This document shows positions 35,401 to 63,989 of a DNA stretch of 64,000 bases, one piece after another (the first letter of the stretch is position 1; each line of letters opens with the position of its first letter). Under the pieces are notes generated by a model, which had not been told where the DNA came from, did not search any database, and saw nothing but the letters and a program-made list of their open reading frames with translations. The stretch is from Diadophis punctatus similis (taxonomy: Eukaryota; Chordata; Lepidosauria; Squamata; Dipsadidae): assembly GCA_023053685.1 (NCBI GenBank), contig JALIGW010000016.1, forward strand, positions 8,383,001-8,447,000, written 5' to 3'. The position numbers were made by a program, and so were the translations under genes.

Positions 35401-38400
35401 ATTAGTATTTTTAGGGCTTTCCAAGTTGTATTATCTTGAACCGCTTGATAGTTTCCACTGCACAGTCTTGGTATTGTTTAAAAAAGGATCCATATAGTTT
35501 CCATTAGAAAAAAGGCACCTAGTGTCCTTCCGGGTTCTCCTTAAATGATAACTTCCAGCAGACTTTGCTGTGGGCTATATAGGCTTTCTGGGAATTCTAG
35601 CACCCTGTTGAGTAAGGCATGAATATATTTGCGGTAGATGTGGTGCAGCGCATCCATATTCCTGCCTTTTGGTTACCTCCCTGCCTTTAGCTAGCCTGCC
35701 TGTTAGAGTAGCTTGGATAAAAATTGCAATGAGGATAGGCCTCATAAGTGCTATAATGTGGATGAGCCCCAAAATTTGGTTTTCACGGAGAGTATTATTT
35801 TAAGTGTGATATTCTATTTTAGGACTTGCAGTACAATTCTCACCTATTTCCTAGGTCCACATGGCAAGAGACTGCTTTCATTTTCAGTTCTCTGGGTCGG
35901 AAAGAATCTCTGAGGGCCACAAAAGAAGGACACAGGGATATATGCAAAATACTCTGGATCTTTTTTTTTTCCTGAGCATGAAATGTTCTGGTTCAACATC
36001 ACAATTGTTGCAGGTTCCGGATGGTTTATCTCTTACTGGAAATGTTCCAATCATTCCAGAAATGCTTTGAGGCACCTGTTTTCTATGTGAAACAGGTGTT
36101 TCCAGCTTGAATGATTGCTGTTTGAAGCTTGAAACTTTTCCAGAATGGTCAGAATAACTCCACAAATATTTCAAACGTGCAGCAAGGTGTTTTGAGCGTG
36201 GAACACAGTATTGTACATTAGAAATGTTTTGAATTTGAAGGACTTTGTGCTTCACTCAAGGGCTGCCGTTCACCTATCCCTAGATTCTAATATTTCTATA
36301 ATTCTATAATGCAGATTTATAATTCTATAAATCTATAAATAATAATAATAACAACAAAGTTGGAAGGGACCTTGGAGGTCTTCTAGTCCAACCCCCTGCC
36401 TAGGCAGGAAACCCTACACTACTTCAGACAAATGGTTATCCAACATCTTCTTAAAAACTTCCAGTGTTGGAGCATTCACAACTTCTGGAGGCAAGCTGTT
36501 CCACTGATTAATTGTCCTAACTGTCAGGAAATTTCTCCTTAGTTCTAAGTTACTTCTCTCCTTGTTTAGTTTCCACCCATTACTTCTTGTTCTACCTTCA
36601 GGTGCTTTGGAGAATAGTTTGACTCCCTCTTCTTTGTGGCAACCCCTGAGATATTGGAACACTGCTATCATGTCTCCCCTGATCCTTCTTTTCATTAAAC
36701 TAGACATACCCAGTTCCTGCAACCGTTCTTCATATGTTTTAGCCTCCAGTCCCCTAATCATCTTTGTTGCTCTTCTCTGCACTCTTTCTAGAGTCTCAAC
36801 ATCCTTTTTACATCGTGGCGACCAAAACTGAATGCAGTATTCCAAGTGTGGCCTTACCAAGGCATTATAAAGTGGTATTAACACTTCGCGTGATCTTGAT
36901 TCTATCCCTCTGTTAATGCAGCCTAGAACTGTGTTGGCTTTTTTGGCAGCTGCTGCACACTGCTGGCTCATATTTAAATGGTTGTCCACTAGGACTCCAA
37001 GATCCCTCTCACAGTTACTACTGTTGAGCAAGGTACCACATATACTGTACCTGTGCATTTTGTTTTTCTTGCCTAAATGTAGAACCTTACGTTTTTCACC
37101 ATTGAATTTCATTTTGTTTGATAGCGCCCAATGCTCAAGTCTGTCAAGATCCTTCTGTATCTTGAGCCTATCTTCTGGAGAGTTGGCTATTCCTGCCAGT
37201 TTGGTGTCATCTGCAAATTTGATGAGTTCCCCATCTATTCCCTCATCCAAGTCATTGATAAGGATGTTGAAGAGTACTGGGCCTAAAACAGAGCCTTGGG
37301 GTACTCCACTGCAAACTTCCCTCCATGTAGATGCAGTTCCATTGAGCACTACACGTTGAGTGCGGTTGGTTAGCCAGTTTTGAATCCATCTGATGGTGTT
37401 GCTGTCCATCCCACATTTTTCTACTTTATCTAGAAGTAGGTTATGGTCTACTTTATCAAATGCCTTACTGAAGTCCAAGTAAACCACATCGACAGCATTC
37501 CTCTGGTCCACTAATTTTGTCACTTTGTCAAAGAATGTAATAAGATTAGTCTGGCATGATCTGTTTTTGACAAACCCATGTTGGCTTTTGGTTATTACTT
37601 TGTTTGCTTCTAGGTGTTCATTGATTCATTGCTTGATTATCTTTTCCAGAATCTTCCCTGGTATTGAGGTGAGGCTGATAGGTCTGTAGTTTCCTGGATC
37701 TGTTTTTTTCCCTTTTTTGAAGATGGGAACTACATCAGCTCTTTTCCAGTCCTCTGGCAGTTCCCCGGTGCTCCAGGATCTTTGAAAGATATAGTTCAGT
37801 GGTTCTGAGATCTCATCTGCCAGTTCCTTCAGAACCTTGGGGTGTAATCCATCTGATCCTGGTGATTTGAATTCGTCTAGGGTAGACAGGTGTTCCTTTA
37901 CCATTTTCTTCCCTATTTTAACTTGTGTTCCTAATATGTTTTTTGTGATGCTGTTTTTGATAGGTTGGACTGTTTTTTCCCTTTGTGTAAAGACAGATGC
38001 AAAATACGTGTTAAGTAGCTCTGCTTTCTCCCTGTTGCTTGTCACCTTCTTGCCACTTTCTCCCTGCAATGGACCAATTGTTTCCTTGACTTTTTTCTTG
38101 TTTTTAATATGTTGGAAGAAGCTTTTTTTGTTATTTTTTACTTTTGTCGCAAGCCTTTGTTCATTGTGAGCCTTAGCTTTCCTCACTTCATCTTTACAGG
38201 CTCGGGCTATTTGCTGGTATTCTACCTTAGTTATTTCCCCTTCTTTCCACTTTTTATACTTGTCCTGTTTGTCTTTCAATTTGTCAGAGAGTTCTTTATG
38301 CAGCCATACTGGTTTCTTTTGAGACCTATTATTTTTCTTCTTCATTGGTATTGTGCTAGTCTGGGCTTTTATAATCTCACTTTTCAAAATTTCCCAAGCT

Positions 38401-41400
38401 TCTTGAGTTGTTTTCCCCTTGAGGATTCTCATCCATGGAATTTTTCCCAAGTTCTCTCTAAGTTTATTGAAATTAGCTCTCTTAAAGTCCAAGACTCTAG
38501 TTTGATTTTGTTCTACTGCTTGTGCTTGCATAATGTTGAATTCCAATATTGCATGATCACTTGCCCCCAAGGTTCCTTTAGCTTCAACACCTTCTATCAT
38601 TTCATCTCTGTTAGTGAGAATTAAGTCCAATATAACTGATCCCCTTGTTCCCTTCTCTACTTTTTGGGAAACAAAATTGTCTGCTAGGTTTGTTAGGAAC
38701 CTGTTGGATCTTCCACTTGGAGCAGAGTTTGTCTCCCAGTTGATGTCAGGGTAGTTAAAATCCCCCATTACTATTGTGATGTGCTTCCTACATACCTTAG
38801 TTAGCTGACTAGCAAAAAGTTCATCTACTTCCTCTGTTTGGTTGGGTGGCCTGTAGTATAGACCTATGGCAATGTCATTTCGCTCCCCTTTAATATTGAC
38901 CCAAATGCATTCAAGATGATTTTCATTATTGTTGTGCTCTATTTTTGTAGAGATGTAGTTATTTCTTACGTATATTGCAACTCCACCTCCTCTTTTATTT
39001 GGTCTGTTTCTTTTAAATAATTTAAATCCCTCTAGCTGTATATTCCATTTGTCAGTTTCATCCCACCAAGTTTCCGTTATGGCAACTATATCATATCTTC
39101 CCTCATTTACTTGAATTTCTAATTCTCCCTGTTTATTCCTCATACTCTGTGCATTGGTGTATAGACATTTAAGTCCATTTTGATTGACCCTGTGTTTATT
39201 GTCTACATAACCTGTGTTGTGCCTGACTGCCCCTACTTTCTTGCCACCTGTTTGATTAGTGCACATGGTATGGCACTCACTATTAAATGCTTGGCTTTGC
39301 TTGACAGCAGAGCTGATAAACTTACCCGCACACACATCTATGTTGTGTACACTGTTAACCCTATTAATTTTAGATTGCTGGGGACAGAAATGATCTGTAT
39401 CAATTAATTCTCTGTCCCCGCTGTTCAGTTTAAATGTTTATCCAGGAAATCTCTGAATTTAATACCAAGTAGCTCAGTCCCTTTCTTTGATGGATGCAAA
39501 CCATCTCTTTTGTACAGTTTTTCATTGGACCAGCTGCAGACATCATGACTAATAAAACCAAAGCTTTCCCTTTTACACCACTCCTTTAGCCACACATTAA
39601 ACTCTGCTACACATTGGCCTTTCCCTTTTTGTTCCTTATATACTGGTAAAACCTCTGAAAAGTTAAGCCTACAACCTATACTACTAAGTTCATACCCCAA
39701 GCTCTGGAAGTCATTCTGCATAGAAAGTACATCTTTTTGGGACAGATCATTTGTGCCAAGATGTATAATAGCATCAACATCACAGTCCTTACTGGCATTC
39801 TTGACAATCTTAAGAATGCGCCTCTTGTCTCTGCTGGCAGTAGCACCTGGCAGACACCTGACCTCTTTCAAAACCTCGATATCCTTTCCTAAATTTACAT
39901 CCCTTACAATTGAATCACCAACCATAAAGATTCTATAACTCTTGGTTAAGAACAATTATCCAATCTAACTATGGTAAAATCCATGTTAACTTTGTTACCA
40001 CAGTCTTTTGGATAGGCAAGAGTTTGAACTGATATGTATTATTAATCCATTACAAAGATTCACCATTCAGAATGCCTTCTGTTAGAGAATCTAAAGTAAG
40101 CATCTCTATAATTCTATATGAAAAATCTATATTCTTCAAAAGTTTAAGGTAAAAGTAAAGGTTCCCCTCATATACCGTATTTTTCGGACTATAAGACGCA
40201 CCGGAGTATAATACGCACCTCAGTTTTTGGGAGAAAAATAAGAAAAAAAAATTCTGCCTACCAGCATCCATCTGGCTAGCGTCCTTAGCAAACAGTCTGG
40301 AACAGGTTTATTAGCCTTGCAAAGCTCCGTTTGAGAGGCTGCTTTTTCAGCCTTACAAAGCTCCGCTTGAGAGGTTGTTTTCAGCCTTGCAAAGCTCCGC
40401 TTGAGAGGCTGGCAGGACTACATTCAGTGTATAAGACGCACTCAGATTTTCACCCTCTTTTTTGGGGGGAAAGGTGCGTCTTATACTCCGAAAAATACGG
40501 TATGTGCTAGTCGTTCCCGACTCTAGGGGGTGGTGCTCATCTCCGTTACAAAGCCAAAGAGCCAGCGCTGTCCGAAGACATCTCCGTGGTCATGTGGCCG
40601 GCATGATTAAACGCCAAAGGCGCACGGAACGCTGTTACCTTCCCATCAAAGGTGGTCCCTATTTTTCTACTTGCATTTTTTAATGTGCGTTCGAACTACT
40701 AGGTTGGCAGAAGCTGGGACAAGTAACGGGAGCTCACTTAAAAGTTTGATTAAGGTTATACAAGGATTATTCTAGTCCAGATTGTAGCAATAATTTATTT
40801 TATTCCAAATCAACATAAATGCATCATAGTTTGTTTTTTAACATGTTAAAAACTGCTGCAGCATCTCCCATTATGGTAACCTGTTCCATTTTAGAGTAAA
40901 GACATAATGAAGAGAATGTGAATTCATAAAATAATATGAATTATTATAATACTGTAATAACACGCTTTAACACTATAACATAAGATTTTTGTATGTTGGC
41001 ATTAGCAAATATCCTGAAATTCCCCTGGGTTTAGGAAATGTCAGAATCATTAAAACAGATGTAAATACTGACATCCATGGCAGGAATCTTTACATCCCTG
41101 CAATGATAGCCAAGATTTATAGACTGCAATACTAAAGAAAATCAAATTGTATTATGGCTTACATGCTTGAATTAAGCTAATAGTGTTCAATTAACAAAGC
41201 ATTGCTATTTAACAAATCATAATGTTTTCTATGAATCCAGTAAGGAAAATAAAAATCTTAAATTCATGTGAAATTCAATTTTGGGAATGCCTGTTTTAAC
41301 ATTTTGCTGTGCGTTATAGAGCTTACCCCAAAAAGATAAACTGAGGGTTGCAATGGAATGTTACTTTTTTTATCAGGGTGGTTTAATGTGAAGTTTCTTG

Positions 41401-47400: not shown

Positions 47401-50400
47401 ATAAGGTGACCTCACCAGAGTACACAGAATAGGCCCATTCTTTTCAATTTTGGGGTTGAAGATAAGGGGTAAAATAAATGTTTTAAATCCCATTCATGGA
47501 GAAATGATGTCTGGCTTGATCCTTAATTTGCACTAAAAAGCACATAAAATGCCACTGACAGTATTTTATTTATTTATTTATTTATTTTGTCAAGCATGTA
47601 TTAGATAACAGATATAGTTATAGACATGGTTATTAATACATGAAATGGATACAAATAAAAGGGGACATTAGGACAGGGACGGTAGGCATGTTGGTGCGCT
47701 TATGCACGCCCCTTACAGACCTCTTAGGAATAGGGTGAGGTCAACGGTAGATAGTCTAAGGTTAAAGTTTTGGGGGTTTGGGGAAGAAACCACAGAGTCT
47801 GGTAGTGCATTCCAGGCATTGACCACTCTGTTGCTGAAGTCGTATTTCCTGCAATCGAGTTTGATGCGGTTTACCTTAAGTTTGTATCTATTGTGTGCTC
47901 ATGTATTGTTGTGGTTGCTGAATTTCAGCGGTGTGATTAGATGAATAGAATAGAATAGAATAATAGAATAGAATAGAATAGAATAGAATAGAATAGAATA
48001 GAATAGAATAGAATAGAATAGAATAGAATAGAATAGAATAGAATAGAATAGAATAGAAGTCATTGAAGGAGAGTTAGACTTTTGCTCTTTTAAAGTGTTT
48101 ATTTTTGTACCTCAGTTAAATAATTGATATGGAAAGGGTTATCTTTTTTCCCTAAGTGAACTAAGGAATGGTAGGTGCAGGCTAACACACGCAGCACAAA
48201 AAATAATAATTACACCTTGTATCCCCAAGGTGAAAATACTTTGCAAATTAATCTCCCCACATTCTTGGCAGTTATAAAATGTTCTTGAAATGATATTAGA
48301 TTTAATATTTCACTCAAAGGAACAGCCAGCAAGCAAGTATATATTGATTTATCCAAGTATATTGTACGTAAGGATGCAAATGAATTCAGTTATGATTTCT
48401 GCAATCTGCTTTCAACAGAATGTGCCATAACAAGCACATTAGCTTTAATTTCAGATTAGAGAAAAATCAGTAACACGTGGAACAACATTCATGCAATCTA
48501 ATGTACTAATTTTGTAATGTTTTCTATGATTTTAACCTGTTTAGAATTGTATTTCAATAAAAGAACAAAAGCCTCATAGAATGATTGAGAGAAAAATATT
48601 GCGTGTTTAAGAAATGCCCTGACAGTGTGTATCAAAAACTTTTAAGTATATCTGTTGTTATGTCGGTGTTTTAATAAAAATAGATATATATGGGGATTGT
48701 ATTTTATGTAGAATAATAACTCACAGCAGGTTGATCTATGTCAATGTTGAAAAATAAAATTAATTCCCTCCTTCTTCTCTGTTCACTAGTTTTGGACAGT
48801 CTGGATAACCAGCTAGCAAAAGAACAATCTCAAGATACTATGAATATAAGAACTCCAACTAACTATGGCTCTACAGCACCAGAAATCTATCATCATTCCA
48901 CTGTTGTGCAACCAAATTTCCTTGGAGAAGTACAGAGAAATGACCAGAACTTGTTTTTCCCAGATAGAACAAGGACATTAAGAGCCAGAGATAAATACAA
49001 AACTGTCTTCACACCAAGGAGACTTTATGATAACTATACAAAGCAGCATCAGCCAGAAAAATACACATATGGGGATTTGTATGATGAAAGATCTTCTGTT
49101 TTGAAGAGAGGATATTCTGCTTGTTCTCTTGGACGTTCTTCAGAAGATAGCTTGGCATTTCCATCAGGATCATACAGTAATGGATTTGGTCCTAAGAACT
49201 TCATGTGCAAGAATAAAATGGGCAGAAGTTACTCTTTGTCTTGCCTTACAAGACGCTCGTCTTTGATGTCTGCTGACGGGTTTTCCACCGGTACCTTACA
49301 GCATGAGTTGGAAAACAATATGGACTTCACAAAAGTCAACTTCCAGCATCATTCCAGACGGACTCCTCTTTCATCTATTGTATGGAATATGCCGCAGTCT
49401 TCTAGACATTCACTACATCCAAACAGACTTCGTAGAACACAGTCATTAATAGAATTTAACTCAGCATTTGAGGACAGACATCCTTGTTCTCCAGAGGAAA
49501 ATACAAGATACCCATTGTTTAGGTCAAAAATGAATTACAGACAAGTAATACCAAACAAGAGCCATCCTTTATTCACTGAGAGACGTATAGACCCTCTGTG
49601 TTTCGACAACCGGGAGAATTATGTGTTACATCCATTGAAAAATGTTTCAAAACCATGTTACAGATACCCATCATTTCGTGGTAAAATGCATCCGTCCCCA
49701 AGCAATCTTCCTTTTGGAAGAACGGAGGAATATCTTTTTAGACGTAATAATCATCAGTATTTCAGGGATGCTAACCATGTCCCTGATGTAAACTTTGAAC
49801 AGGTGATTGACCGGCGAAGTGACTATGGGGGAAAAAAAGATGTATGGCAAAGTGAACATATGCGTGACTGTGCCTCAGAATACACAAAGAGTAGGGATCA
49901 TCCAGGAAGAGGAAGTAACAAATTGTTTGCTAAGTGTTCAAAAGGCACACAGAAAGGTCCAACTTATGTCTCAGCTGCTTTGGAGAACCAAACTGAACAT
50001 GCAGCGCCAAGTCAAAGCCATTTTAGTGGAGATAGTCAAGCTCTTTCAAAGACATTTGTTAAACCCTTTCAAACCAAGAAAAACTCTAAAATGTGTGGCA
50101 TGGAAGAGGTGAATGGTGCTGATCAGCCAGACAAAATGGATAGTATGGACATAAAAAAGCCAACATTAATTCAAGCGTTTGGACAAGTAAAAACAAATAG
50201 TCCAACAGAATATCAGATGTCCCCTCCTACAGTCTCTTCTCAAGCTACCCCTCCTATGAGTGTATCCCTGCATCCACCTTTTATCTTAAATTCAAAAAGG
50301 CAAGCCAAGGCAAATTCCTCAAGACGCGTTGAAAACGTTTGCTTATCAAATATTCACACTAATAATGGCCAAAGAAATGAAGACAACAGCACTGAAAGCA

Positions 50401-53400
50401 ACGGTGTAAAGCAAGCTTTCCCCCCACATCTGATCGCTAATCTTTCAAAGCTGTCAGTTCTTCGAAGTAACCCTCAAGAGGAACACCAGCTGGAAACTTT
50501 GAAAGCATTTAGCCTTGACAAGATGTTAAACCCTGTTTTCATTGACGACCCCAAAGTACTTCCAAACAATGATTTTCCTCTTTCTTATGCTGAAACACTC
50601 CATCAACCGAATAGATTTGTTAGATATTCAACTAGTAATAGTATTTGTGGCTCGCCCAGTGGCAGCCCTCTCAAACCTCCTAAGACGCCTAAGACATTAT
50701 ATCAAAAATCAGCTAGTATTGACGGCAGTGATCTCTCTAAAAGACGCATCTCTCCCCCTACGAGGAAAATTCCTTTCAGAAATAAGAGGATGGGGGAGGA
50801 TAACATAGAATCCCATGTATCAAACAGACTTGGGAATATTTATTCAAATAAGGCAGATAAGAGGTCTTTGTTCAGCTCATCCTGCTCATCCTTAAACATA
50901 TCGTCCAAAGAAATGGCTGAAGAAAAAAATAAACAAATTAAAAAGTACCACGTGCATTTAATTCAAGCTCCTAACTGCCCATCAGGGAGTACTACTGATA
51001 TAATTGGCAGCAAGCGGAAAAAAAGAGATGAGATGCTCCGTCTAGAGAAAGCAATTTTTCTTTCTCCTGAAAAGGAGGAAGCAGAAAATCCTTTAAAGCA
51101 ATATAAAACTACCAGCACATTGACCGTAAGCATAGATGAAGATAATGTAAAATACCATGAACTGATTTCGGTTTATTATACTTTACCACAGAAACATTCG
51201 AAAACGTTGTGCGATGTCTTTCTAGGAGATACCAAAAAGGCAGATTCATCCCCATCCCCAGAAAAACCCGGGACCCCTCAAAAGCAGTATGAAGTTCGTG
51301 TCGGTATGACAACTCTAGCTTTTCCATCCAGCTTAGAAAAAGGAGATAAACTTATTTCCCCTGACAAAATGCCTGCTCCTGATATACAACAGGATTCAAA
51401 AAATACAGGCAATCCTGTTAAAGATCTCCAAGTTTCAAATCCCACTGTGGAAACAGCAGATATTTCTCAAGCACATTGTTCAATGAATAATAAAAAAGAA
51501 ATAGTTGTATCAGGAACAGGAGAGCTGGGACTTGCAATTTCCAATAGGCTACCTGTGGATGGCCCCAAACCCAGCAGAAAAGAGGTTGAAACAGTTAACA
51601 CCAATATTTTGTCCAACCTGCATGTTGGCAGGCACTCTTCTCCATGGACAGAGACACCAAAACTTAATAAAAGCTTACATCTTAACTCATTGAATTCCAA
51701 AAGTATCTCTTTGGGGAATATTTCTGTAGTTTCTTCTGCAATAAATGGCCAAAAAGGGGGTCTTGGCTGTAGTCAGCCATCTGCTGAAGCATCAGCAAGC
51801 ATTCCTCCTTCCAATTTAATTGACGTTATCCAGGACGGAAAGCCCACTGCATATCCAGAAATTGGCACCCAAGTAAATGTCACTAAAGAAAAAATTAGAA
51901 ATGCTGCAGAGATCAAAGAAAGGGCTCGTTATATATGTCGGATTATTTCTGAAAGGGGACATCTGTTTCCACCGAGAAATGAAGGTGTCCGAAATGAAAC
52001 GTCCATTTCAACAACCAAGATGCATTCAGATTCCCAGAATTTAACAATGCCAGGGGATGCTGCTTTTTCAGCTAATGCAGTTGTTCATCCCAAAGGGAAT
52101 GCGGTAGAATGTTCAAAGCCCCAACAGCAAGAGATGCCTCAAAATCCTGCACTCCACAAAGTTGGCACCAATTTACAGAGGTCTGAAAGAGTCTGTGTGA
52201 ACAATGAGAACCTTAGCTCTAAAGATCAGCATTCAGGTCCTACACAGGACTTGCCTAAGCATTTACTACCTGAAAGTAAGCTTGCCCTGGATGGCCTTAA
52301 AAATAAAGTTAATGACATAGAAAAAAGGAAAAATAGGTCTTCCGTTAAAAACAAACTGGCAGCCATGTGCAGAACAAGTCGAAAGTTTTCTAATAAGAAA
52401 AGCTCAAGTCCCAAACCACACGTAAGTTGCATATTTTCACAAAACGATGCACTTCCATTTCAGAAGAGCAGCCACCATCCCCTGTTGATTTCACCCAATG
52501 ACTCTCAGCAAACAGGGAATGTGAATCAGAATCAGGTTTCTCTACCTGGTGAATTTGATATTCCAAGACTGAGTAAAGTGGAAACTAAGAAATTGCAAGT
52601 TAATGAAAACAGGAGGCCTTTGACAAACTTGTGCAACCAGAAAAGAGAACATTCTGGGCAAAGCGATAAAAATATAAAGACCATCCAAAATTCTAGCCTC
52701 GTATTTTCAAAATCAATTATGCCTGTGCTGAACAGCAATTTACAGACAGGTAGCAAAGTTTTAGAAAACAACAACAATCTCATTTTCTCCAAATGCACAG
52801 GAATGGATGCTTACCCCCCAAAAAGAGCTCACTGTAAAGTTGGTGAGCTTTCATCTTTTCCACTTTTATCTGATAAACATGCATACATTAAAAATAATTC
52901 AAAGGCAAATATTTGTCCACTGCAAAAATTGACTTCTCAAGCAGAATGTGATGATTATCAAGATAATGAGCAGTCAGACGTCTTTAAAAATGTAAACCAG
53001 TCCTGTGCCAAGCCAGTTCTAAATCTCAGCAAAACCCAGCGTGAACGACATTTTTCTGAAAGTTCCTCTACACAAAAGCTCCATGATTATTTGCCCTCCA
53101 AAAACAACTTGACACAGCCCGGATATAATCGGAAGTTCAAGTCCTATTCTGAACTGTTGTCCTGTGATGAAAATGAGAACTGGGACACATACAACGAGAA
53201 TCACAGGAACTTAGGCTCGCGACGTATCATGTACCCCTCAATTGAATTTGGTATTTTTGGGAAAGAACAACAGCAGGCTTTCTTAGATAACATAAAGAGG
53301 TCACTTACGGAAGGACGGTTGTGGAATCCATGTCTTTTAAAGAACTCCAGGTCCATTAAAAGGGAAGATGGGTGCTCCTTACGTGGGTTGGAGCTGTTGA

Positions 53401-53558
53401 AATCGAGTGCTACAGCAGAACACTTCTCAAATGAACCTTTTGATTTCCACGAAGAAGTCTCTGCATATTCTTCAGATTCGGATTCGGATTCTGACTCTGA
53501 CACCACCACAGATGATGAATATTATCTGCATGAGTATGAGAAAGAATCAGAACTATGA
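13101..53558 (+). CDS. EXPH5: EXPH5 (exophilin-5 / Slac2-b), five of probably six coding exons
   Basis: Join of 13101-13258, 15019-15193, 41501-41558, 45861-45978 and 48790-53558: about 1,758 codons without a break, all phases compatible. In mammals the family member binds Rab27 through an N-terminal helical domain and acts in secretory-vesicle and exosome trafficking, notably in keratinocytes. Seen here: the TGEW motif of the Rab-binding domain (exon at 13101), a conserved FASLFS segment (exon at 15019), the short segment [13 protein letters not shown] at the last junction, then RTPxNYGS and TPLSSIxWN near the start of the giant last exon, all matching the mammalian protein as I remember it. 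The last exon encodes about 1,589 residues, mostly low-complexity and disordered, ending in an acidic Ser/Asp tail. The start codon exon is not in the window. Mammalian EXPH5 is near 2,000 residues, so this orthologue is somewhat shorter. The orthology call is from recognition, not a search. Confidence 0.93.
14197..14398 (+). mobile_element. tRNA-derived SINE
   Basis: gtcaagtggttaaggcatca (A box) and gaattctagtcctgcc (B box), followed by the same body as 1897-2060. Located in EXPH5 intron 2. Confidence 0.75.
14404..14759. mobile_element. TA-flanked MITE (ACCGTATTTTTCGG family)
   Basis: Inverted ends taccgtattattcggagtat and actccgaaaaatacggta with subterminal aagatgcacc / ggtgcgtc. TA on both sides. 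Second copy at 40173-40502. In EXPH5 intron 2, about 260 bp before exon 3. Confidence 0.8.
15019..15193 (+). CDS. EXPH5: EXPH5 coding exon 3
   Basis: A 175-nt exon after a strong polypyrimidine acceptor (t-rich tract then cag ending 15018), with donor gtaagc at 15194. Phase in matches the previous exon (A|AT, Asn) and phase out is two bases (CG). It encodes a Ser/Lys-rich segment with [15 protein letters not shown], matching the conserved FASLFS segment of mammalian EXPH5. The donor is followed 22 nt later by a hAT-type MITE. Confidence 0.87.
15216..15404. mobile_element. hAT-like MITE (CAGTGATGGCGAAC family), left part, next to EXPH5 exon 3
   Basis: Starts ctgtgatggcgaacctatgg then cacgcgtgccagaagtggca. 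The upstream 8 bp are TCCTATGC (15208-15215), centred on TA. It begins 22 nt after the exon 3 boundary. The right end is missing. Confidence 0.75.
15405..16133. mobile_element. TA-flanked palindromic element split by a Sauria SINE
   Basis: Left part 15405-15731 (cagttgttaagtggatgctg) and right part 16082-16133 (gtcaaggactacctgta) belong to the family at 9088. The SINE between them is flanked by taacttca on both sides. Confidence 0.7.
15733..16078 (+). mobile_element. Sauria-type tRNA SINE
   Basis: Head ggcggctcagctgttaagac (A box) and ggttcgagacc (B box), body ccaacctagcagttcgaaag and ggacagtgctggttc, ending with the typical ctcctttacctttac tail. Confidence 0.85.
16195..16425. mobile_element. 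hAT-like element, right end
   Basis: Ends with gagctgcaggttgctgaccc ctg, the reverse of the widespread CAGGGGTCAGCAACCTGC hAT terminus. gaaagagccac occurs twice. Left terminus not found. Confidence 0.6.
16924..17255 (-). mobile_element. Degenerate non-LTR retrotransposon C-terminal fragment
   Basis: In minus frames, broken by stops, it reads [16 protein letters not shown] sequence, [16 protein letters not shown] and [19 protein letters not shown]. This matches a conserved C-terminal signature of some LINE reverse transcriptases (VPVVIGALG type). Clade uncertain. Confidence 0.5.
17256..18172. other. No recognised feature
   Basis: Unique-looking intron 3 sequence with a short GA run at 17974-17990. 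No exon or repeat recognised. Confidence 0.45.
18181..18561. mobile_element. hAT-like MITE (CAGTGATGGCGAAC family), complete
   Basis: Ends cagtgatggcgaaccttttt and aggttcgccatcacgg. Perfect 8-bp duplication GCCTAGTG (18173-18180, 18562-18569), centred on TA. The interior has cagagcctttctaggagcct, shared with 28650-28930. Confidence 0.9.
19018..19240 (-). mobile_element. tRNA-derived SINE (second family)
   Basis: agcacttagacttatatacc through gcatattgcccccaac and ttgagccaatcaggattgaa. Minus orientation, same family as 2221-2446. Confidence 0.78.
19592..20145 (+). mobile_element. BovB (RTE) LINE 3' fragment
   Basis: Open frame 19628-20119 encodes the BovB RT C-terminus: [60 protein letters not shown] and [13 protein letters not shown]. 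It ends with the BovB 3' end acttcgcaactaacaacaac. In EXPH5 intron 3, same strand as the gene. Confidence 0.92.
20146..21100. other. No recognised feature
   Basis: Unique-looking intron 3 sequence. No exon recognised. Confidence 0.4.
21110..22085 (+). mobile_element. BovB LINE 3' fragment, split by a MITE
   Basis: Left part 21120-21197 (agctggaccataaggaaggc) and right part 21746-22085 (cttggactgcaaggagatca to the end agcgactgaacaaaaacaac) form one degenerate BovB copy. A hAT-like MITE (21198-21745) interrupts it. Confidence 0.82.
21198..21745. mobile_element. hAT-like MITE (CAGTGGTGGGTTCC family) inside BovB
   Basis: Ends are inverted (cagtggtgggttcctaccgg and attaggaacccgcccctg). The 8-bp target duplication gtagtgtt is perfect (21190-21197 and 21746-21753). 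The interior is GC-rich with cacccggtcacatggc repeats. The same family is at 56540-57095 (opposite orientation) and 57468-57895. Confidence 0.88.
22119..22250. repeat. Palindromic MITE (CAGTGTTTCTC family)
   Basis: Arms caaatttggcaactttatga and aagttgccaagtttgagaa are inverted, with tgcgtgaac / gttcacgca inside. Target duplication not clear. Confidence 0.65.
22856..23076. mobile_element. hAT-like MITE
   Basis: Ends cagggttggttttcacttac and ctaaatgccacctctg. Perfect 8-bp duplication gggcaagc (22848-22855, 23077-23084). Related to 6206-6380 and 58713-58918 (shared cttaccttc, ctaccggttcg). Confidence 0.85.
23350..23398. repeat. (AC)n microsatellite
   Basis: About 24 AC units. An L2 3' tip (gggagttgggcggcatacaa and an A-rich tail) follows at 23400-23465, then a shorter (AC)n at 23488-23511. 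Confidence 0.95.
23400..23465 (+). mobile_element. L2 LINE extreme 3' tip
   Basis: cccctgggagttgggcggca followed by tacaaatctatttaaat and (AAATA)n: only the last ~65 bp of an L2 copy, between two AC arrays. Confidence 0.7.
23488..23511. repeat. (AC)n microsatellite
   Basis: About 12 AC units. The 17-bp string taggcaatcttggccac occurs on both sides (23464, 23513). Confidence 0.9.
23540..25675. other. Intron 3 sequence with simple repeats
   Basis: Contains (GGGTT)n then (GCTTT)n at 24068-24110, (GT)n at 24938-24961 and a partial copy of the 320-535 repeat at about 25065-25100. No exon recognised. Confidence 0.5.
25678..26493. mobile_element. TA-flanked palindromic element, one copy nested in another
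   Basis: The inner copy (25732-26120: caggtaatccttgacttatg to tcgaggactacctg) has TA on both sides and splits an older copy (25678-25729 and 26123-26493, ending gtcaaggattacctgca). Confidence 0.78.
26534..26773 (-). mobile_element. tRNA-derived SINE (second family), most complete copy
   Basis: Reads on the minus strand from the head ccgaggtggtgcagtggtta (26773) with a B-box-like gttcaaatctc to the tail agtgctattgct (26534). Confidence 0.82.
26780..27520. other. No recognised feature
   Basis: Unique-looking intron 3 sequence. Confidence 0.4.
27530..28219. mobile_element. hAT-like MITE carrying an L2 insertion
   Basis: Left end cagggatgtcaaactcgtgg and right end aaagtttgacaccc are the termini of the CAGGGGTGTCAAACTC family. 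Target duplication agttaggt / agttaggc. Most of the interior (about 27640-28206) is an L2 3' end. Confidence 0.82.
27640..28206 (+). mobile_element. L2-type LINE 3' fragment nested in a MITE
   Basis: Open frame 27625-28014 encodes [20 protein letters not shown] and [20 protein letters not shown]. It ends gccgccctgagtccttcggg and gcggcatataag, nearly identical to the L2 at 29898. Confidence 0.9.
28468..29689. mobile_element. hAT-like MITE (CAGTGATGGCGAAC family) carrying an L1 insertion
   Basis: Ends ccgtgatggcgaacctatgg and agttcgccatcactg. Target duplication GCATAGGG / GTATAGGG. The interior has three inverted or direct copies of a block around gagcctttctaggagcctgg. The right arm is interrupted by an L1 3' end. 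Confidence 0.88.
29091..29674 (+). mobile_element. L1-type LINE 3' end (5'-truncated)
   Basis: AT-rich sequence followed by a G-rich polypurine tract (29580-29618), typical of L1 3' UTRs, an AATAAA (29663) and a poly(A) run. aaaaaaagtt on both sides is a plausible target duplication. Confidence 0.72.
29898..31401 (-). mobile_element. L2-type LINE, 5'-truncated, long open RT frame
   Basis: Minus-strand element with a TAAA-type tail (29900-29926), the family's 3' signature GGGCGGCATATAAG-like stem (29935-29975), and an ORF at 30109-31401 that reaches the 5' truncation point. At least eight other copies of this family or relatives are in the window, all 3' fragments. It lies in EXPH5 intron 3, antisense. 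Confidence 0.88.
30109..31401 (-). CDS. L2-type reverse transcriptase, 430 codons without a stop
   Basis: RT motifs: [17 protein letters not shown] (block 2), [20 protein letters not shown] (block 3), [16 protein letters not shown] (block 4), YADDTQLY (catalytic YADD) and [11 protein letters not shown] (block 6). The C-terminal region [20 protein letters not shown] and LHWLPI is typical of L2. No frameshift is seen in 1.29 kb, which suggests a recent insertion. The endonuclease half is absent. Confidence 0.88.
   Translation of the reverse strand: MEKVVVTQTLQLLDETDHLDPYQSGFRRGYSTETALVALMDDLWRARDGGNSSILVLLDLSAAFDTIDHGILLHRLSELGVGGTVLRWFSSYLADRMQSVLAGGQRSSPRPLSCGVPQGSVLSPILFNIYMKPLGEIIRRHGVCFHQYADDTQLYITTPSDFSEAVDVMCRCLDDVRIWMGRNRLRLNPDKTEWLWILPPKDYDNCPSLVLEGAKLTPSDQVRNLGVLLDPQLKLDHHLSAVARGAFAQVRLVHQLRPYLEKEALLTVTHALVTSRLDYCNALYMGLPLKSIRRLQLVQNAAARAVVGVPRYTHVTSILRQLHWLPIGLRVQFKVLITIFKALHGLGPGYLRDRILPHTSLRPVRAHRVGLLQVPSAKQCRLAGPRGRAFSVAGPVLWNQLPPETRTIPTLLAFRKAVKTWLFLQAGGRA
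31402..31687. other. No clear feature; small palindrome
   Basis: 31562-31600 contains a perfect inverted repeat of the string tcttctcaagaagaaagtag and its complement. Otherwise unremarkable. Confidence 0.5.
31688..32079. mobile_element. TA-flanked palindromic element
   Basis: Starts tacaggtagtccttgaccta and ends ggttgtaagccaacctgta, with gttaagtgaatc motifs inside. Family of 9088-9480. Confidence 0.8.
32118..32529. mobile_element. hAT-like MITE (CAGGGGTGTCAAACTC family)
   Basis: Ends caggagggtgaaactcaagg and cgagtttgacacccctg. Target duplication ttctagaa / atctagaa, centred on TA. Confidence 0.87.
32548..32735. mobile_element. hAT-like MITE (CAATGTTCCCTCTAA family)
   Basis: Ends caatggtccctctaatgtta and agcttagagggaacattg. 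Perfect 8-bp duplication accagggc (32540-32547, 32736-32743). The interior is a tandem duplication of ~80 bp built on aaaayggcgcgcggca. Confidence 0.88.
32744..36284. other. Repeat-poor block of intron 3
   Basis: The longest stretch without recognised transposons. 32960-33430 is richer in GC than its surroundings and has ttgacgtggtaagc (donor-like gtaagc at 33353). No coding exon could be supported. Confidence 0.4.
36414..37523 (-). CDS. CR1 ORF2, reverse transcriptase core and C-terminus
   Basis: A 369-codon open frame. RT motifs: [13 protein letters not shown] (block 3), [15 protein letters not shown] (block 4) and FADDTKLAG (catalytic FADD, block 5), followed by the conserved C-terminal region RTRSNGWKL and [11 protein letters not shown]. 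It is in frame with the upstream endonuclease half and separated from it by one stop codon. Confidence 0.9.
   Translation of the reverse strand: MTKLVDQRNAVDVVYLDFSKAFDKVDHNLLLDKVEKCGMDSNTIRWIQNWLTNRTQRVVLNGTASTWREVCSGVPQGSVLGPVLFNILINDLDEGIDGELIKFADDTKLAGIANSPEDRLKIQKDLDRLEHWALSNKMKFNGEKRKVLHLGKKNKMHRYSICGTLLNSSNCERDLGVLVDNHLNMSQQCAAAAKKANTVLGCINRGIESRSREVLIPLYNALVRPHLEYCIQFWSPRCKKDVETLERVQRRATKMIRGLEAKTYEERLQELGMSSLMKRRIRGDMIAVFQYLRGCHKEEGVKLFSKAPEGRTRSNGWKLNKERSNLELRRNFLTVRTINQWNSLPPEVVNAPTLEVFKKMLDNHLSEVV
37626..39335 (-). CDS. CR1 ORF2, endonuclease and start of reverse transcriptase
   Basis: A 569-codon open frame. APE-type endonuclease motifs in order: [33 protein letters not shown] and SDHA. 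A linker rich in Lys follows, and then the first RT blocks ([22 protein letters not shown]). The frame ends at a single TGA directly before the continuation at 37523, which is in the same frame, so this is one point-mutated ORF2. Confidence 0.88.
   Translation of the reverse strand: MCAGKFISSAVKQSQAFNSECHTMCTNQTGGKKVGAVRHNTGYVDNKHRVNQNGLKCLYTNAQSMRNKQGELEIQVNEGRYDIVAITETWWDETDKWNIQLEGFKLFKRNRPNKRGGGVAIYVRNNYISTKIEHNNNENHLECIWVNIKGERNDIAIGLYYRPPNQTEEVDELFASQLTKVCRKHITIVMGDFNYPDINWETNSAPSGRSNRFLTNLADNFVSQKVEKGTRGSVILDLILTNRDEMIEGVEAKGTLGASDHAILEFNIMQAQAVEQNQTRVLDFKRANFNKLRENLGKIPWMRILKGKTTQEAWEILKSEIIKAQTSTIPMKKKNNRSQKKPVWLHKELSDKLKDKQDKYKKWKEGEITKVEYQQIARACKDEVRKAKAHNEQRLATKVKNNKKSFFQHIKNKKKVKETIGPLQGESGKKVTSNREKAELLNTYFASVFTQREKTVQPIKNSITKNILGTQVKIGKKMVKEHLSTLDEFKSPGSDGLHPKVLKELADEISEPLNYIFQRSWSTGELPEDWKRADVVPIFKKGKKTDPGNYRPISLTSIPGKILEKIIKQ
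39425..39955 (-). CDS. CR1 ORF1 C-terminal SGNH hydrolase (esterase) domain
   Basis: A 176-codon open frame. SGNH/GDSL blocks are visible: GDSIVRDV (block I, catalytic Ser), GTNDLS (block III, Asn) and DGLHPS (block V, Asp/His). CR1-type LINEs are known to carry such an esterase in ORF1. The N-terminal part of ORF1 is missing, probably by 5' truncation during integration. Inferred role: RNP formation or lipid interaction during retrotransposition. Confidence 0.85.
   Translation of the reverse strand: MFLTKSYRIFMVGDSIVRDVNLGKDIEVLKEVRCLPGATASRDKRRILKIVKNASKDCDVDAIIHLGTNDLSQKDVLSMQNDFQSLGYELSSIGCRLNFSEVLPVYKEQKGKGQCVAEFNVWLKEWCKRESFGFISHDVCSWSNEKLYKRDGLHPSKKGTELLGIKFRDFLDKHLN
39961..40148. other. 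No recognised feature
   Basis: AT-rich flank between the CR1 5' end and the Sauria SINE. Confidence 0.4.
40149..40735 (-). mobile_element. Sauria-type SINE split by a MITE
   Basis: Minus-strand SINE: tail aaagtaaaggttcccctca (40153-40170), body ctagtcgttcccgactctag to cgcacggaacgctgttacct, and caagtaacgggagctcac near the head (40735). A TA-flanked MITE sits near its tail. Confidence 0.87.
40173..40502. mobile_element. TA-flanked MITE (ACCGTATTTTTCGG family)
   Basis: Inverted ends taccgtatttttcggactat and tactccgaaaaatacggta. Inside are three direct copies of ~40 bp (ttgcaaagctccgcttgaga). Confidence 0.88.
40740..41500. other. No recognised feature
   Basis: AT-rich end of intron 3 up to the exon 4 acceptor. 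Confidence 0.45.
41501..41558 (+). CDS. EXPH5: EXPH5 coding exon 4 (small)
   Basis: A 58-nt candidate exon after the acceptor ttctttacag (ending 41500). It is needed to connect exon 3 (two-base overhang CG) to exon 5 (frame 0), and does so exactly: CG|A followed by 19 codons. The donor ACG|gttggt is weak (G at +5 but T at +3). A second phase-compatible GT at 41574 has a poorer context. The encoded peptide is Ser/His/Glu-rich and not strongly recognisable, so placement rests on phase and splice sites. Confidence 0.7.
41941..42496. mobile_element. hAT-like MITE (CAGTGATGGCGAAC family), complete
   Basis: Ends cagtgatggctaaccttttt and aggttcgccatcacgg. Target duplication ctctatgc / ccctatgc (41933-41940, 42497-42504), centred on TA. 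Contains a long hairpin at 42141-42233. In EXPH5 intron 4. Confidence 0.9.
42141..42233. repeat. Long near-perfect inverted repeat (43-bp arms)
   Basis: 42141-42183 and 42191-42233 are reverse complements with two mismatches and a 7-base loop. The arm begins caggttggtgcaggaggcct. It lies inside the MITE and could fold into a stable hairpin RNA. Confidence 0.95.
42505..42933. other. Possible L2 trace, otherwise featureless
   Basis: 42505-42560 (ttccagaaggccatgaagac) resembles the L2 C-terminal coding region. Nothing else recognised. Confidence 0.35.
42934..43321. mobile_element. TA-flanked palindromic element
   Basis: Ends cagatagtcctcgccttaca and cctcaaggactacctg with TA on both sides. Orientation opposite to 9088-9480. 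Confidence 0.8.
43322..44365. other. No recognised feature
   Basis: AT-rich intron 4 sequence. Confidence 0.4.
44366..44945 (+). mobile_element. L2-related fragment split by a MITE
   Basis: Left part (gccttttctgtgccagcccc, ctgccctgtggaaca) and right part (gacctgacttttccttccaa, gggagccgctcagagttgcc, tail gaatgaataaaat) fit one L2-like 3' end around the MITE 44470-44713. Confidence 0.65.
44470..44713. mobile_element. hAT-like MITE (CAGGGGTGAAATCC family)
   Basis: Ends caggggtgaaatccagcagt and ttggatttcaccactg. Flanks ctctaaag and gcttaaag are an imperfect duplication. The same family ends at 1-43. Confidence 0.8.
44950..45860. other. No recognised feature
   Basis: AT-rich end of intron 4 up to the exon 5 acceptor. 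Confidence 0.4.
45861..45978 (+). CDS. EXPH5: EXPH5 coding exon 5
   Basis: A 118-nt exon after the acceptor gtaaacccag (ending 45860), with donor gtaaat at 45979. The open frame starts at the first base and leaves one base (G) that joins the last exon as G|TT, Val. It encodes a segment ending [13 protein letters not shown], corresponding to the mammalian PPWDASLLENEFFQ that directly precedes VLDDLD. The other two frames contain stops, so the frame is unambiguous. Confidence 0.86.
46039..46478 (-). mobile_element. Mariner-type transposon remnant with inverted duplication
   Basis: 46040-46310 is a minus-strand mariner 3' end: terminal repeat ttacgagggtgagtcaaaac, and transposase C-terminus [20 protein letters not shown]. 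46310-46455 carries an overlapping part of the same gene on the plus strand (YSPDLA-like, [19 protein letters not shown]), so the two halves form a fold-back structure. In EXPH5 intron 5. Confidence 0.78.
46480..47253. other. No recognised feature
   Basis: Intron 5 sequence without a recognised element. Confidence 0.4.
47262..47379. mobile_element. Short palindromic MITE (CAGTGTTTCTC family)
   Basis: Ends cagtgtttctcaacctt and gaggtggaaaaacactg. Target duplication ccatatag / ccatagag. It contains gtggacgtcaacc / ggttgaggcccac arms. Confidence 0.8.
47560..47938 (-). mobile_element. CR1/L3-like LINE 3' fragment
   Basis: Minus strand, broken by stops: [20 protein letters not shown] and [12 protein letters not shown] sequence, a LINE ORF2 C-terminus. 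The (AAAT)n tail is at 47562-47588. The (AATAG)n array abuts its 5' truncation point. Confidence 0.65.
47941..48058. repeat. (AATAG)n pentanucleotide microsatellite
   Basis: About 23 units of gaata/aatag, nearly pure, with one phase slip near 47960. It is in EXPH5 intron 5 and adjoins a LINE 3' fragment. Confidence 0.95.
48059..48789. other. End of EXPH5 intron 5
   Basis: AT-rich sequence up to the acceptor of the giant exon. No repeat recognised. Confidence 0.45.
48790..53558 (+). CDS. EXPH5: EXPH5 giant terminal coding exon
   Basis: A 4,769-nt exon after the acceptor gttcactag (ending 48789). The open frame happens to extend about 50 nt into the intron, so the Met at 48738 is not a start. 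RTPxNYGS is at about 48849-48872 and TPLSSIVWN at about 49361-49390. The protein is rich in Ser, Asn, Lys and Gln with many Ser-Pro and Thr-Pro sites and no recognised globular domain. The C-terminus is strongly acidic: alternating Ser-Asp (53474-53505), then [10 protein letters not shown], ending ESEL and TGA at 53556-53558. One very large last exon is the typical EXPH5 architecture. Confidence 0.95.
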
Positions 53559-59760: not shown

Positions 59761-61078
59761 ACCTTGCAATTATTGATCTGTGAGGTGATTAGAATAAGAG
59801 CAACCATGTCATAATTCAAGAAGTGCTGCTTATTTATTTATCAATTTTACTTTACTGATCTATTCTGATTGGTCCTGCATTTCCCAAAACAGCAATAGAC
59901 TGGCACCAGAATGAAGCAGCTTGTAGCTCTGCCAATTATGTGTAAAACAAAATTATTTCTCCTCCTCTGGTTCCATTCTCTTCTCTCTCTCTCTCTCCTG
60001 TTACTCCAAAAGTTGCCATGACATTGTAAATGTGTAGGTAAGAAGAAAATGGTTAAACTTAAGAGGAAAAATTATTTTAATTGTATGTTTGTAATTGTAA
60101 GTTAAAATTATACCAAACTTCTTGGCCTTGGCTCTGCCCATGTTTTTGCATGCAATCCCTAGCATGTCATCCAACAGTGAAAGGTGACGCAGCTATAGTA
60201 CACCCACTTATTAATGGTTTATACATAATTAGACCTTTTGTGGAGACACTTAAACAAGAAAGACCATATTTTACACATTAATGAAGGAACAAATGCTAAT
60301 TTTGAATGCGTGGGAGGATATGTAGTTCCATCTGGAAAGCTATTTTCTTGTTTAATGATTTTTACAGCATGTCTATAAAAGGTGTTAATTATAAAAAATA
60401 TTATTTTAGAAAGAAGTTAATATAGGTGGAGAAGGTTTTGCTTTTCTAAATCTTGTACACGGTGAATTATCCAACAGAGTTCCAGAATATTCCGATACCT
60501 CAATACCATAGCTCACTAGTTGTATTCCATATGTTTTTAACTGCCTTTCTTTTTTTTCTTCTTCTATTATCCTAGAGCTTGAAGACTTTGAGTATATTTA
60601 ATTGACAGAAGAGTCAGACCAAACTGCAAAAGGATGCAAAATTAATCTATGGGGTTTTTGGGTTTCAACATGTGATGGTTATTGGCTTAACTGGCTTCAA
60701 ATAGGAATTATGGATTATCTCTGACCATAGTTATCAGACTTGAGGGCTATCTAGTATTTCCGAGGTCAGCAGAATTCCTTCACAGGATCACATGGAATTA
60801 AGTCAGTTTAAAACAATTCAGGAAATCACCTTGCATGCTGTCATGAATTTGTGGTAGTTTTCACAAGAAATCACATGACTTCAGAGAGCTATGAAGTGTT
60901 ATAAGATTCACCAGATTCCATCAATTTCTAAATGAAGTTTTGTCTGCACCTTTTGTTTTTCTGCATATTTATATCAGCCCCTCCAATGCCTCGTTTTCAG
61001 AAGAATATACTGTTGAATGGTAATTAGATCAAATAGTGTTGTTGCCTAAAGTTATTTCTGCCCTCTTTTCTCTTGCAG
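59761..61078. other. Region upstream of POGLUT3 exon 2 remnant
   Basis: AT-rich. POGLUT3 exon 1 (signal peptide) would be expected between the EXPH5 end and here but was not recognised. (TC)n at 59978-59998. Confidence 0.4.
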
Positions 61079-61200
61079 AAGTGCACCATTTAAAATGACA
61101 AACCAATCTCTCAAACAGAAATAATCCAGATTCATGTCCCATAACTTCTAGATAGGAATGAATGGATGTTTTCTAAAATAGTATCAGCTGTATGGAAGGG
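61079..61200 (+). pseudogene. POGLUT3: POGLUT3 remnant, exon 2 (filamin-like domain)
   Basis: Follows an excellent acceptor (tctcttgcag ending 61078). The first frame reads SAPFKMTNQSLKQK then TAA at 61122-61124, matching the family's TPFKVVVKSLSPKE. A +2 shift then reads IQIHVP, TAA, LLDRNEW, matching VRIHVPKPLDRNDG. Beyond about 61190 similarity fades (possible EGLR) with further stops. Confidence 0.78.
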
Positions 61201-61733
61201 CTGAGATAGCGTTAAACACAAAAATGCTTCATTGCAATGTATACATAGCTCAGTCTCCTTACATTTTGAAGGGTAAAGACCTGGTTAATTGTTGAATAAA
61301 GAAAATCCTGTCAGAATGCTCAACATGGGTGTGAATAGATTGTATTCTATTCTATCTTATTTGGAATTGCTTAGGACTGGAGAAGTCAGATTTATGCAAT
61401 ATCAAGAGTTATTGTTAAGTGTTATAATAGTGGATACATTTGACACAGAAACATATGGTTGCTTTGTAGAGTATTTTATAATACTTATCTTCAAGGAATT
61501 ACAAGTTAATTGGCTTGGGTCCCAATTCTGTTAAATCCATTTATAATTTTAATTTATGGGTGCATAAATCCCAAAAAATCAGATTTGAGAGTTAGTAAGT
61601 TTGAATATTTATAATCAAAATCTTAGAATGGACAAATATTTTAATCTTACATAATTACATTTTCCTTTAAAAGGAGAAACTCTAATGTATCAACCCCTAT
61701 TCGGAACCTTATTAAGTCATTTGCTTCTTTCAG
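61201..61733. other. Decayed intron 2 of the POGLUT3 remnant
   Basis: No clear coding similarity. An 81-codon open frame at 61289-61534 has no recognisable product. Confidence 0.4.
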
Positions 61734-61900
61734 GTCCAGTTTATCCCACATATGGTGAATATCTAGAAGATATCAGATTTGAGGAAATGTTTTATCAAGT
61801 CCATTAGAAAACTATATTACTAAAGATGTTGCTGCATTTCCTAGTATTGGTCTTCAGCAGATGTTCGATATGCAAAAAGTCCCACAAAAAATTGGCCAAA
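61734..61900 (+). pseudogene. POGLUT3: POGLUT3 remnant, exon 3
   Basis: Follows acceptor gcttctttcag (ending 61733). It reads GPVYPTYGEYLED, matching GPVYHEYCECPED with both cysteines replaced, and then TAG at 61805-61807. In another frame from 61819 it reads TKDVAAFPSIGLQQM, matching AKDFASFPSINLQQM, then KVPQKIG matching EVPKRFG. Similarity stops where a BovB 3' end begins (about 61901). Confidence 0.82.
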
Positions 61901-61980
61901 ATTATTGTTATTGTGTTCAGTCACTAAGTCATGTCCAATTCTTCACAAACCCTGGTCCATAGAATACCACGTGGTTCATT
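61901..61980 (-). mobile_element. BovB 3'-end fragment inside the POGLUT3 remnant
   Basis: ttattgtgttcagtcactaa then gtcatgtccaattcttc is the reverse complement of the BovB 3' end seen at 22040-22080. It begins exactly where exon 3 similarity stops. Confidence 0.7.
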
Positions 61981-61984
61981 ACAC

Positions 61985-62424
61985 TATCCTTGTTTGTTTG
62001 TTTGTTTAGCATATGGCATATCATACAAGGACTAACAATATACTGTATATTCATATTTCATCCAGATTAGTAGAACCCAATAAAATATAAATATTAAAAA
62101 GACTATCCATAATCATCACTATCCATAATCATCACATCTATCAATTGGGGAAGTACATAACTTCAAAATCTCTTCAGGCAAGGAAGGTATTTCCTACTGG
62201 TACTGATTTATTAATGTCTAATATAACAGGCATTTATATGAATGTAATAATATTTCAACTCATTGGATATATCTACTGTATATGACACAACAACTATTTT
62301 CAAGTTGTTTTGGTCAGCATCCCAGGAGCCATAGGCTTGGCCACGTTTCCTCTTTGCAAGTTCAGAGACAGGATTCTAACTCTGAAAGGGGAAATTTTAT
62401 ATTGGGAAACTTTTATATTGGTAT
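61985..62424. other. No recognised feature
   Basis: (TTTG)n at 61993-62008 and a duplicated atccataatcatcac at 62105-62135. Nothing else seen. Confidence 0.4.
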
Positions 62425-62432
62425 ACCTACAC

Positions 62433-62721
62433 CAGAGATGAGTTGCACCCAGTTCGGACCAGTTCTATAGAACCGGTAGCGGGAATTTCCCCCTGCTCGC
62501 TGAACTGGGAGCGATCACCTGTTGGCCACGCCCCCAAACCGGCTCTAATGGCGGCACCTATGGCAGCACCATCTTATTTTTGGCTTCTGCGCATGCGCAG
62601 AAGCTTGTTTTGGCTTCTGCGCATGCGCAGAAGCTGGGTTTTCGGCACTACGCATGCACGCGCAGCCATGTGGCACGGGAGGAAGCGAACCGGCAGCGAG
62701 ATAAGTTAGAACTCACCCCTG
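62433..62721. mobile_element. hAT-like MITE in the decayed POGLUT3 intron
   Basis: Ends cagagatgagttgcacccag and ttagaactcacccctg. Target duplication acctacac / acctacat. Contains a direct repeat of ggcttctgcgcatgcgcaga (62582, 62612). Confidence 0.85.
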
Positions 62722-62729
62722 ACCTACAT

Positions 62730-63689
62730 CCAGTCTGCAAATGAACATAGCATTTTAGACCATAACATAAGCTGGCTGAAATGTATTCACTTCAGTTGCA
62801 AGCAATAAGGTTGGTGTTAGGTTGGTTGAAGAATTCAATTGTTATTGCGCTGTCTAGCTCATTTGCAAGAAATATTACCTTCTTCAATCTCCTGTTGAAT
62901 TTGATTTGCCTCCAGGCTTTTCCCATATTTTTGTATTCCAAATATTTGCACCACCAGTCACAGGATGAAAATTAAATGGCATTAAAATCTATATACTCAT
63001 TTTCACTGCGATATGCATATAACTGCATATACTTTCCATTCTTTGATTTCCATCCCATTTAAATTTTGGTTCCTAAGTCAATGAGTACAAGAGTATCACA
63101 GTATATACAAAGGAGCCTTCTTATCTGAATTGCATCCAGAAAATATAGAAGAAACTCAACATTACTGCCTTGTGAGATCTTTTTAACTTTGCAATGTTTT
63201 TCTTTTTGTAAATGTGTTATAAAACCAAAATTAAACATGTTTTTTAAAAAGCAGAAACATTCTTTGGCGTGGGATTTGGAAGAAAAGGAAGGAAGGAAGG
63301 AAGGAGCATTTTTCTGGCTATATAAAAGCACTTCAGATTAAATACCCCAAGGACATATGTGACAGAAAAACATAGTTGGCCTTTTATGCATATGCAGGTA
63401 CTTTATGCTTGCATTTATTCATTTTATTGCTTGTATATATTGCTTATATTGCACTTTCCCTCCAAATGCTGAAGTCAAGAAGTTCTCTCTTCATTTTATC
63501 TCCACAACAACAAGGGAGGAAAGGTGCACTAGGAAAGAATGGCCCAAAATTTACCATGGAAGCTTCCACATCTGAAAAGGAGTTTGAACCCCAATTCTCA
63601 CCCAAAAGCTTAACCACGATATCACACTGGCTCCTCTTCTCCTTGAACAAATACCTTTAATGTCAGTGACTACAACCACAATACATGAA
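62730..63689. other. No recognised feature
   Basis: AT-rich sequence between POGLUT3 remnant blocks, with (GGAA)n at 63277-63305. Confidence 0.4.
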
Positions 63690-63989
63690 AGCTGAAGTCA
63701 GACCTTGGATAGTAGCATATCTGATCAATGATTCACTGGTTGATTTTATGTTCATCTCCCTGATGTGAAATTCTATCTTAGTGTTGTGGGTTGGCTTGCT
63801 GAACATTGGAAGGTGAATGACACACCCGGTCCTCTACCTATCTTTTCATGGTGTGGCTCCACAGACAGAGCAGATATAGTGCTTTCAACTTACGATGTCA
63901 CCCATTCAAGCTTTGAAACTTGGCGTGGTGTCACAAACGATTTATCTGTGCAAAAGAACAGAGGTAAAAGGGAAAGAGCATTTTTTTGA
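63690..63989 (+). pseudogene. POGLUT3: POGLUT3 remnant, start of the glucosyltransferase region
   Basis: The frame from 63720 reads SDQ, stop, FTG, stop, FYVHLPDVKFY, then a clear match to the family: GWLAEHWKVNDTPGPLPIF, SWCGSTDRADIVLSTYDVTH and RGVTNDLSVQ (best block 63759-63962). After NRG about five codons of the family are missing, then ERAFF and TGA at 63987-63989. No convincing acceptor precedes the block, and similarity continues past a possible donor (ggtaaaa, 63964). The sequence runs off the window end. Confidence 0.82.

Follow-up and report, generated by a model that had tools for sequence, protein, structure and literature searches.

POGLUT3 is a unitary pseudogene beside EXPH5 in the snake Diadophis punctatus similis

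We identified the remains of POGLUT3 (KDELC2), a GT90 protein O-glucosyltransferase, in the genome of Diadophis punctatus similis. The remains are almost certainly those of the resident single-copy gene, which has decayed in situ into a unitary pseudogene and yields no enzyme. The locus carries disabling lesions and lies at the syntenic site, no working copy was found elsewhere in the assembly, and a working orthologue is present in relatives, with at least ten lizard POGLUT3 records among the matches listed (best 120 of 834). The initial annotation, which had read the locus as a lost POGLUT3 and a unitary pseudogene beside EXPH5, was right in essence. The window is the whole stretch of 64,000 nucleotides that was analysed (C68:8383001-8447000), taken from an assembly of 1.78 Gb in 419 contigs. 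Five collinear blocks with similarity to POGLUT3 were found by tblastn and per-exon profiles, three in the window and two beyond its right end, where window coordinates are extended past 64000:

48735-53558, + strand, large open exon of 1607 aa in the left neighbour, which we take to be EXPH5 (open reading frame)
61100-61272, + strand, relic of POGLUT3 exon 2, coding for the last part of the filamin domain (tblastn and per-exon profile)
61273-61733, + strand, relic intron that interrupts the Gly codon of ILK-G-PVY; donor GTAAAG, acceptor TTCTTTCAG
61734-61902, + strand, relic of POGLUT3 exon 3 (tblastn and per-exon profile)
61903-61952, + strand, first part of a repeat-like insertion within exon 3 (internal repeat match)
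63750-63989 (block to 63986), + strand, relic of the first part of POGLUT3 exon 5 (tblastn; per-exon profile, E 1.5e-33)
65494-65652, extended coordinates, + strand, relic of POGLUT3 exon 6 (per-exon profile)
67418-67521, extended coordinates, + strand, relic of POGLUT3 exon 8 (per-exon profile)

The three blocks inside the window had been noticed at the outset and hold at about these positions; the question whether exons continue past 64000 is answered by the relics of exons 6 and 8. In a search of 89.7 kb, the exon-5 block matched the three lizard POGLUT3 queries listed with 66-67% identity (E 1e-28 to 4e-28), and the match pairs for exon 2 and exon 3 had E values of 4e-10 to 2e-8 and 1e-5 to 4e-4, respectively. 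Against five POGLUT2 queries, the identity of the exon-5 block was 45-48% (E 6e-13 to 3e-11). The exon-8 pieces are weak by themselves (E 4e-4 and 1e-3 in the per-exon profile search); this relic ends with CNCHKKTPSREEI, and its counterpart in the python Liasis is CNCHRKTPSREEL. Judged by these alignments, the similarity of the blocks to POGLUT3 is far above chance. The relic resembles lizard POGLUT3 (Varanus P0164, Pogona P0184, Podarcis P0172, Tiliqua P0162) in its residues, in those exon borders that can be tested and in gene order beside EXPH5, and differs from it by stops, frameshifts, absent exons and the loss of the catalytic Asp. POGLUT2 (KDELC1), the paralogue with an identical domain order, is clearly less similar to the relic and lies intact on another contig (C35) of the snake genome. 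A tree was calculated from 18 POGLUT3 and 6 POGLUT2 sequences and the relic, using the 269 columns that are filled in the relic. The relic grouped with POGLUT3 (100/100), within POGLUT3 with squamates (99/99) and among these with Liasis (98/95), on a terminal branch of 0.58 compared to a median of 0.099, a kind of row whose placement the tree program flags as unsure.

The lesions, all on the + strand, are distributed over the five relics as follows:

Exon 2, TAA at 61142-61144, frameshift at about 61163, TAG at 61179-61181
Exon 3, frameshifts at about 61772-61782 followed by a TAG at 61805; small in-frame indels, with one codon missing at 61812
Exon 5, TGA at 63987-63989; one codon missing at 63941 and five at 63965
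Exon 6, in-frame TAA at 65584-65586 (extended coordinates)
Exon 8, frameshift at about 67481; codons missing at 67459 (four) and 67480 (two)

Four stops are in frame with the aligned exons (starting at 61142, 61179, 63987 and 65584), and the relic has no open frame through all POGLUT3 exons. One of the four lesion positions named in the initial annotation stands and three were wrong. The TAG at 61805 is present, but is met only through the frameshift at about 61772-61782. The TAA at 61122 lies outside the aligned frame, the real stops of exon 2 being those listed above, and the TGAs at 63729 and 63741 are intronic, as the exon begins only at 63750. The loss of both cysteines of the YCEC motif, which reads YGEY in the exon-3 relic, had been seen correctly. 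No AG directly precedes the start of the exon-5 or the exon-6 relic. Per-exon profile searches of the 42-kb interval from EXPH5 to ATM gave no match below E 0.5 for exon 1, exon 4, the rest of exon 5 (5b) or exon 7. A spliced alignment with cheap gaps had proposed pieces of exons 4, 5b and 7; these were rejected as chance matches on this ground and dropped before invariant sites were counted.

According to the available text of a study on POGLUT2, D238 is the catalytic base of that enzyme and R310, R316 and R376 are its phosphate-binding arginines (PMC13084666). The relic has Gly at the position of Asp238, which falls in the exon-5 relic, and Trp at that of Arg376, and the stretch with the equivalents of Arg310 and Arg316 was not found in the relic region. 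Among the positions that are invariant in 15 other tetrapods, 35 of 121 are changed in the relic; when each of those tetrapods was left out in turn, it showed 0-5 changes at 121-126 invariant positions. As read from the sequence, the relic makes no enzyme, because the four in-frame stops, the frameshifts, the missing exons and the changed catalytic base exclude function.

The insertion in exon 3 had been named as BovB. An interruption that looks like a repeat does begin at about 61903 (+), with a 48-base match of 83% identity (E 2.5e-6) to window positions 22040-22084 on the opposite strand, and we presume the sequence to be a BovB-like tail. The window also contains long open frames at 30109-31404 (-), 36414-39955 (-) and 19601-20119 (+), which presumably encode retrotransposon endonuclease or reverse transcriptase.

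The nearest sequence to the relic in the tree, Liasis olivaceus P0242, bears on how far the loss reaches among snakes. It is the sole named snake POGLUT3 among the matches listed in one search (best 120 of 867), and no named snake POGLUT3 was among those listed in another (best 120 of 834). For POGLUT2, at least ten snake records are named among the matches listed (best 120 of 1117). Some rows of these protein listings are nameless and each cluster formed at 90% identity appears under a single name, so that a short or hidden snake entry is possible. The Liasis entry is labelled 'LOW QUALITY PROTEIN', a label for models that have been mended for frame or stop problems. It has 7 indel events compared to 0-2 in the 15 other tetrapods, its residues continue past the REEL end, one YCEC cysteine is lost, and 21 of 218 invariant sites are changed compared to at most 9 of 232 in the other tetrapods. 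These features of the protein model suggest that it is degenerate and probably also a pseudogene, although one that is far less decayed than the relic and that retains exons absent from it.

The loss of POGLUT3 is thus probably not confined to Diadophis and may extend to other snakes. If it is older and shared, the gene would have been inactivated or released from constraint a single time, no later than the common ancestor of pythons and colubrids, and POGLUT3 would be missing from other snakes too; this would extend the unitary-pseudogene explanation and is compatible with it. We consider it to have just under an even chance of being correct. The state of the Liasis model argues for it, together with 11 residues that are common to the relic and Liasis and absent from the 15 other tetrapods, the branch of 0.13 that the two share, and the lack of another named snake POGLUT3 where snake POGLUT2 is named repeatedly. 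Decay is unequal, however (35/121 changed invariant sites in the relic vs 13/119 comparable sites in Liasis), the catalytic Asp is kept in Liasis, no common disabling lesion was seen in a comparison that used Liasis as protein only, and the absence of other records is drawn from the best 120 rows, nameless and clustered ones included. The losses could also be independent: an early one among colubroids, and a later or even recent one in the python lineage. The roughly threefold weaker decay in Liasis and its terminal branch of 0.14 compared to 0.58 for the relic point in this direction, but a slower clock in pythons could yield the same picture and the branch common to the two snakes is itself long; independence has rather less than an even chance in our estimation.

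In a simulation of neutral decay, the 29% of changed invariant sites in the relic were reached at about 0.17 changes per site and the 10-11% in Liasis at about 0.05 changes per site. At a neutral rate of 1 to 2.4e-9 per site per year, this would correspond to roughly 70-170 million years of decay for the relic and 20-55 million years for Liasis, values that are biased low as only recognisable blocks enter the count and on which no conclusion rests.

Whether shared or not, the loss in Diadophis concerns the resident gene, as is apparent from its structure and position. The intron at 61273-61733 has kept both splice sites and the relic is therefore no retrocopy; its border coincides with the border in POGLUT2 as read from translations. 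The acceptor of exon 8 is intact at 67416-67417 (extended coordinates), so that the absence of introns that marks processed pseudogenes is not found here. The borders before YKYQ, after IKWA and before KYAERQ match those of exon-skipping isoforms from Podarcis, pangolin, Prinia and peafowl. Of two splice acceptors reported initially, the AG at 61732-61733 is real and the AG at 61077-61078 is doubtful, as the match to the Liasis protein extends further upstream.

The flanking genes are in the expected order. The N-terminal EXPH5 parts of read-through models match four exons between C68:8371708 and window position 45983 (+), and the C-terminal exons of ATM, matched with a reconstructed query sequence, lie at C68:8478617-8488972 (-). 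The order is thus EXPH5 (+), POGLUT3 relic (+), ATM (-), in line with the earlier claim that position and strand relative to EXPH5 fit, and with the human order, in which we take ATM to lie beside POGLUT3 and C11orf65 presumably lies between the two. Read-through models that join EXPH5 and POGLUT3 exist in horse (P0142), starling (P0189), sea turtle (P0192) and alligator (P0204), which suggests that the two genes are neighbours in other amniotes as well. The horse model is named Exophilin 5; such names mislead, but the models are useful as evidence that the genes adjoin.

A whole-assembly search with the Varanus POGLUT3 gave nine matches, seven on C35, all in POGLUT2, and two in the relic; no working POGLUT3 was found elsewhere in the 1.78-Gb assembly with this query. 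An intact POGLUT3 elsewhere in the genome had been named initially as the finding that would overturn the interpretation, and only the relic and POGLUT2 came up. As the POGLUT3 query recovered POGLUT2, the search contained a positive control for a more distant target. It covered assembled sequence and overlooked relic exons 2, 3 and 8, and is thus sensitive to an intact copy, not necessarily to a decayed one. A search of the assembly with the Pfam domain Glyco_transf_90 gave four matches, located in the POGLUT2 and relic loci, with a limited sensitivity, as nothing was obtained for POGLUT1.

It is very improbable that the relic is a retrocopy or an extra duplicate that landed beside EXPH5 while the true POGLUT3 lies elsewhere. 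This possibility gains from the sequence ETLR-GVTND, which is continuous in the relic and interrupted by an intron in POGLUT2, but no border occurs at this point in any exon-skipping isoform compared. Human POGLUT3 has 8 exons and human POGLUT2 has 10, and POGLUT3 probably lacks an intron at this point in general. The retained intron with donor and acceptor, the acceptor of exon 8, the order and strand that fit EXPH5-POGLUT3-ATM and the lack of another POGLUT3 in the assembly all speak against a copy that arrived from elsewhere. Synteny and the retained splice sites thus support the original interpretation of a resident gene decaying in place. An assembly or sequencing error in a working POGLUT3 is scarcely credible: the single-site lesions rest on one assembly, but decay that spans five exons, alters 35 of 121 invariant residues and goes with whole exons not found is unlike assembly errors.

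The paralogue POGLUT2 is intact in the same genome and open across 10 exons to its KEEL end (C35, about 5908950-5929470). The tenth exon is very short and consists of VKEEL and the stop only; in POGLUT3, the REEL end shares an exon with CHRKKPS. A truncated POGLUT2 without KEEL, whose frame would end after HRTKV, was ruled out by the tenth exon, which follows an acceptor at about C35:5929450. With its exons joined, the snake POGLUT2 is closest to colubrids among the 10 snake records compared, with an identity of 98.6% to Pituophis (353 aligned residues), 97.6% to Pantherophis (417), 96.6% to Naja and 96.0% to Pseudonaja (503 residues), and 94.0% to Liasis (401).

Both POGLUT2 and POGLUT3 glucosylate the EGF repeats of fibrillins, LTBP1 and Notch in the stretch between cysteines 3 and 4, and in the available text of both studies the authors judge the two enzymes to be largely redundant, with limited site specificity (PMC11261140, PMC8405936). 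Mice that lack one or the other enzyme are described as viable and fertile, and those without both mostly die as newborns (PMC11261140). Among the EGF repeats of FBN1, FBN2 and LTBP1, ten are reported to prefer POGLUT2 and four POGLUT3 in human cells (PMC8405936). Drift under the cover of POGLUT2 would be the simplest account of the loss of POGLUT3. The loss would have been tolerated as POGLUT2 modifies EGF repeats with O-glucose in a like manner, if the redundancy seen in mouse and human cells extends to snakes, and snakes of this lineage would rely on POGLUT2 alone. POGLUT2 may cover all sites in snakes.

No report of the loss of POGLUT3 in snakes was found in the open literature searched (judged by title, supplements excluded). 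We tentatively suggest, with nearly as much confidence for as against, that POGLUT3 was lost or freed from constraint once, early in snakes, and that the O-glucose between cysteines 3 and 4 on fibrillin, LTBP and Notch is added by POGLUT2 alone. If so, snakes as a group are perhaps natural POGLUT3 knockouts, a clade with a long-term loss in which the sites preferred by POGLUT3 were either taken over or abandoned by POGLUT2. A lineage long without POGLUT3 would make it testable whether the specificity of POGLUT2 has widened, whether the sites preferred by POGLUT3 are no longer glucosylated, and whether some essential substrates depend on POGLUT3 only. The case is also a warning that a snake gene model named POGLUT3 may be a mended pseudogene.

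Other gene losses in snakes, such as those of claw proteins, are reportedly known. Like other unitary pseudogenes of snakes, POGLUT3 is a resident gene that decays with no working copy elsewhere, and in this respect represents a fairly ordinary kind of gene loss. Unlike the claw proteins, POGLUT3 is a glycosyltransferase of the ER that has a redundant paralogue, and its loss would seem to have no evident tie to a lost organ.
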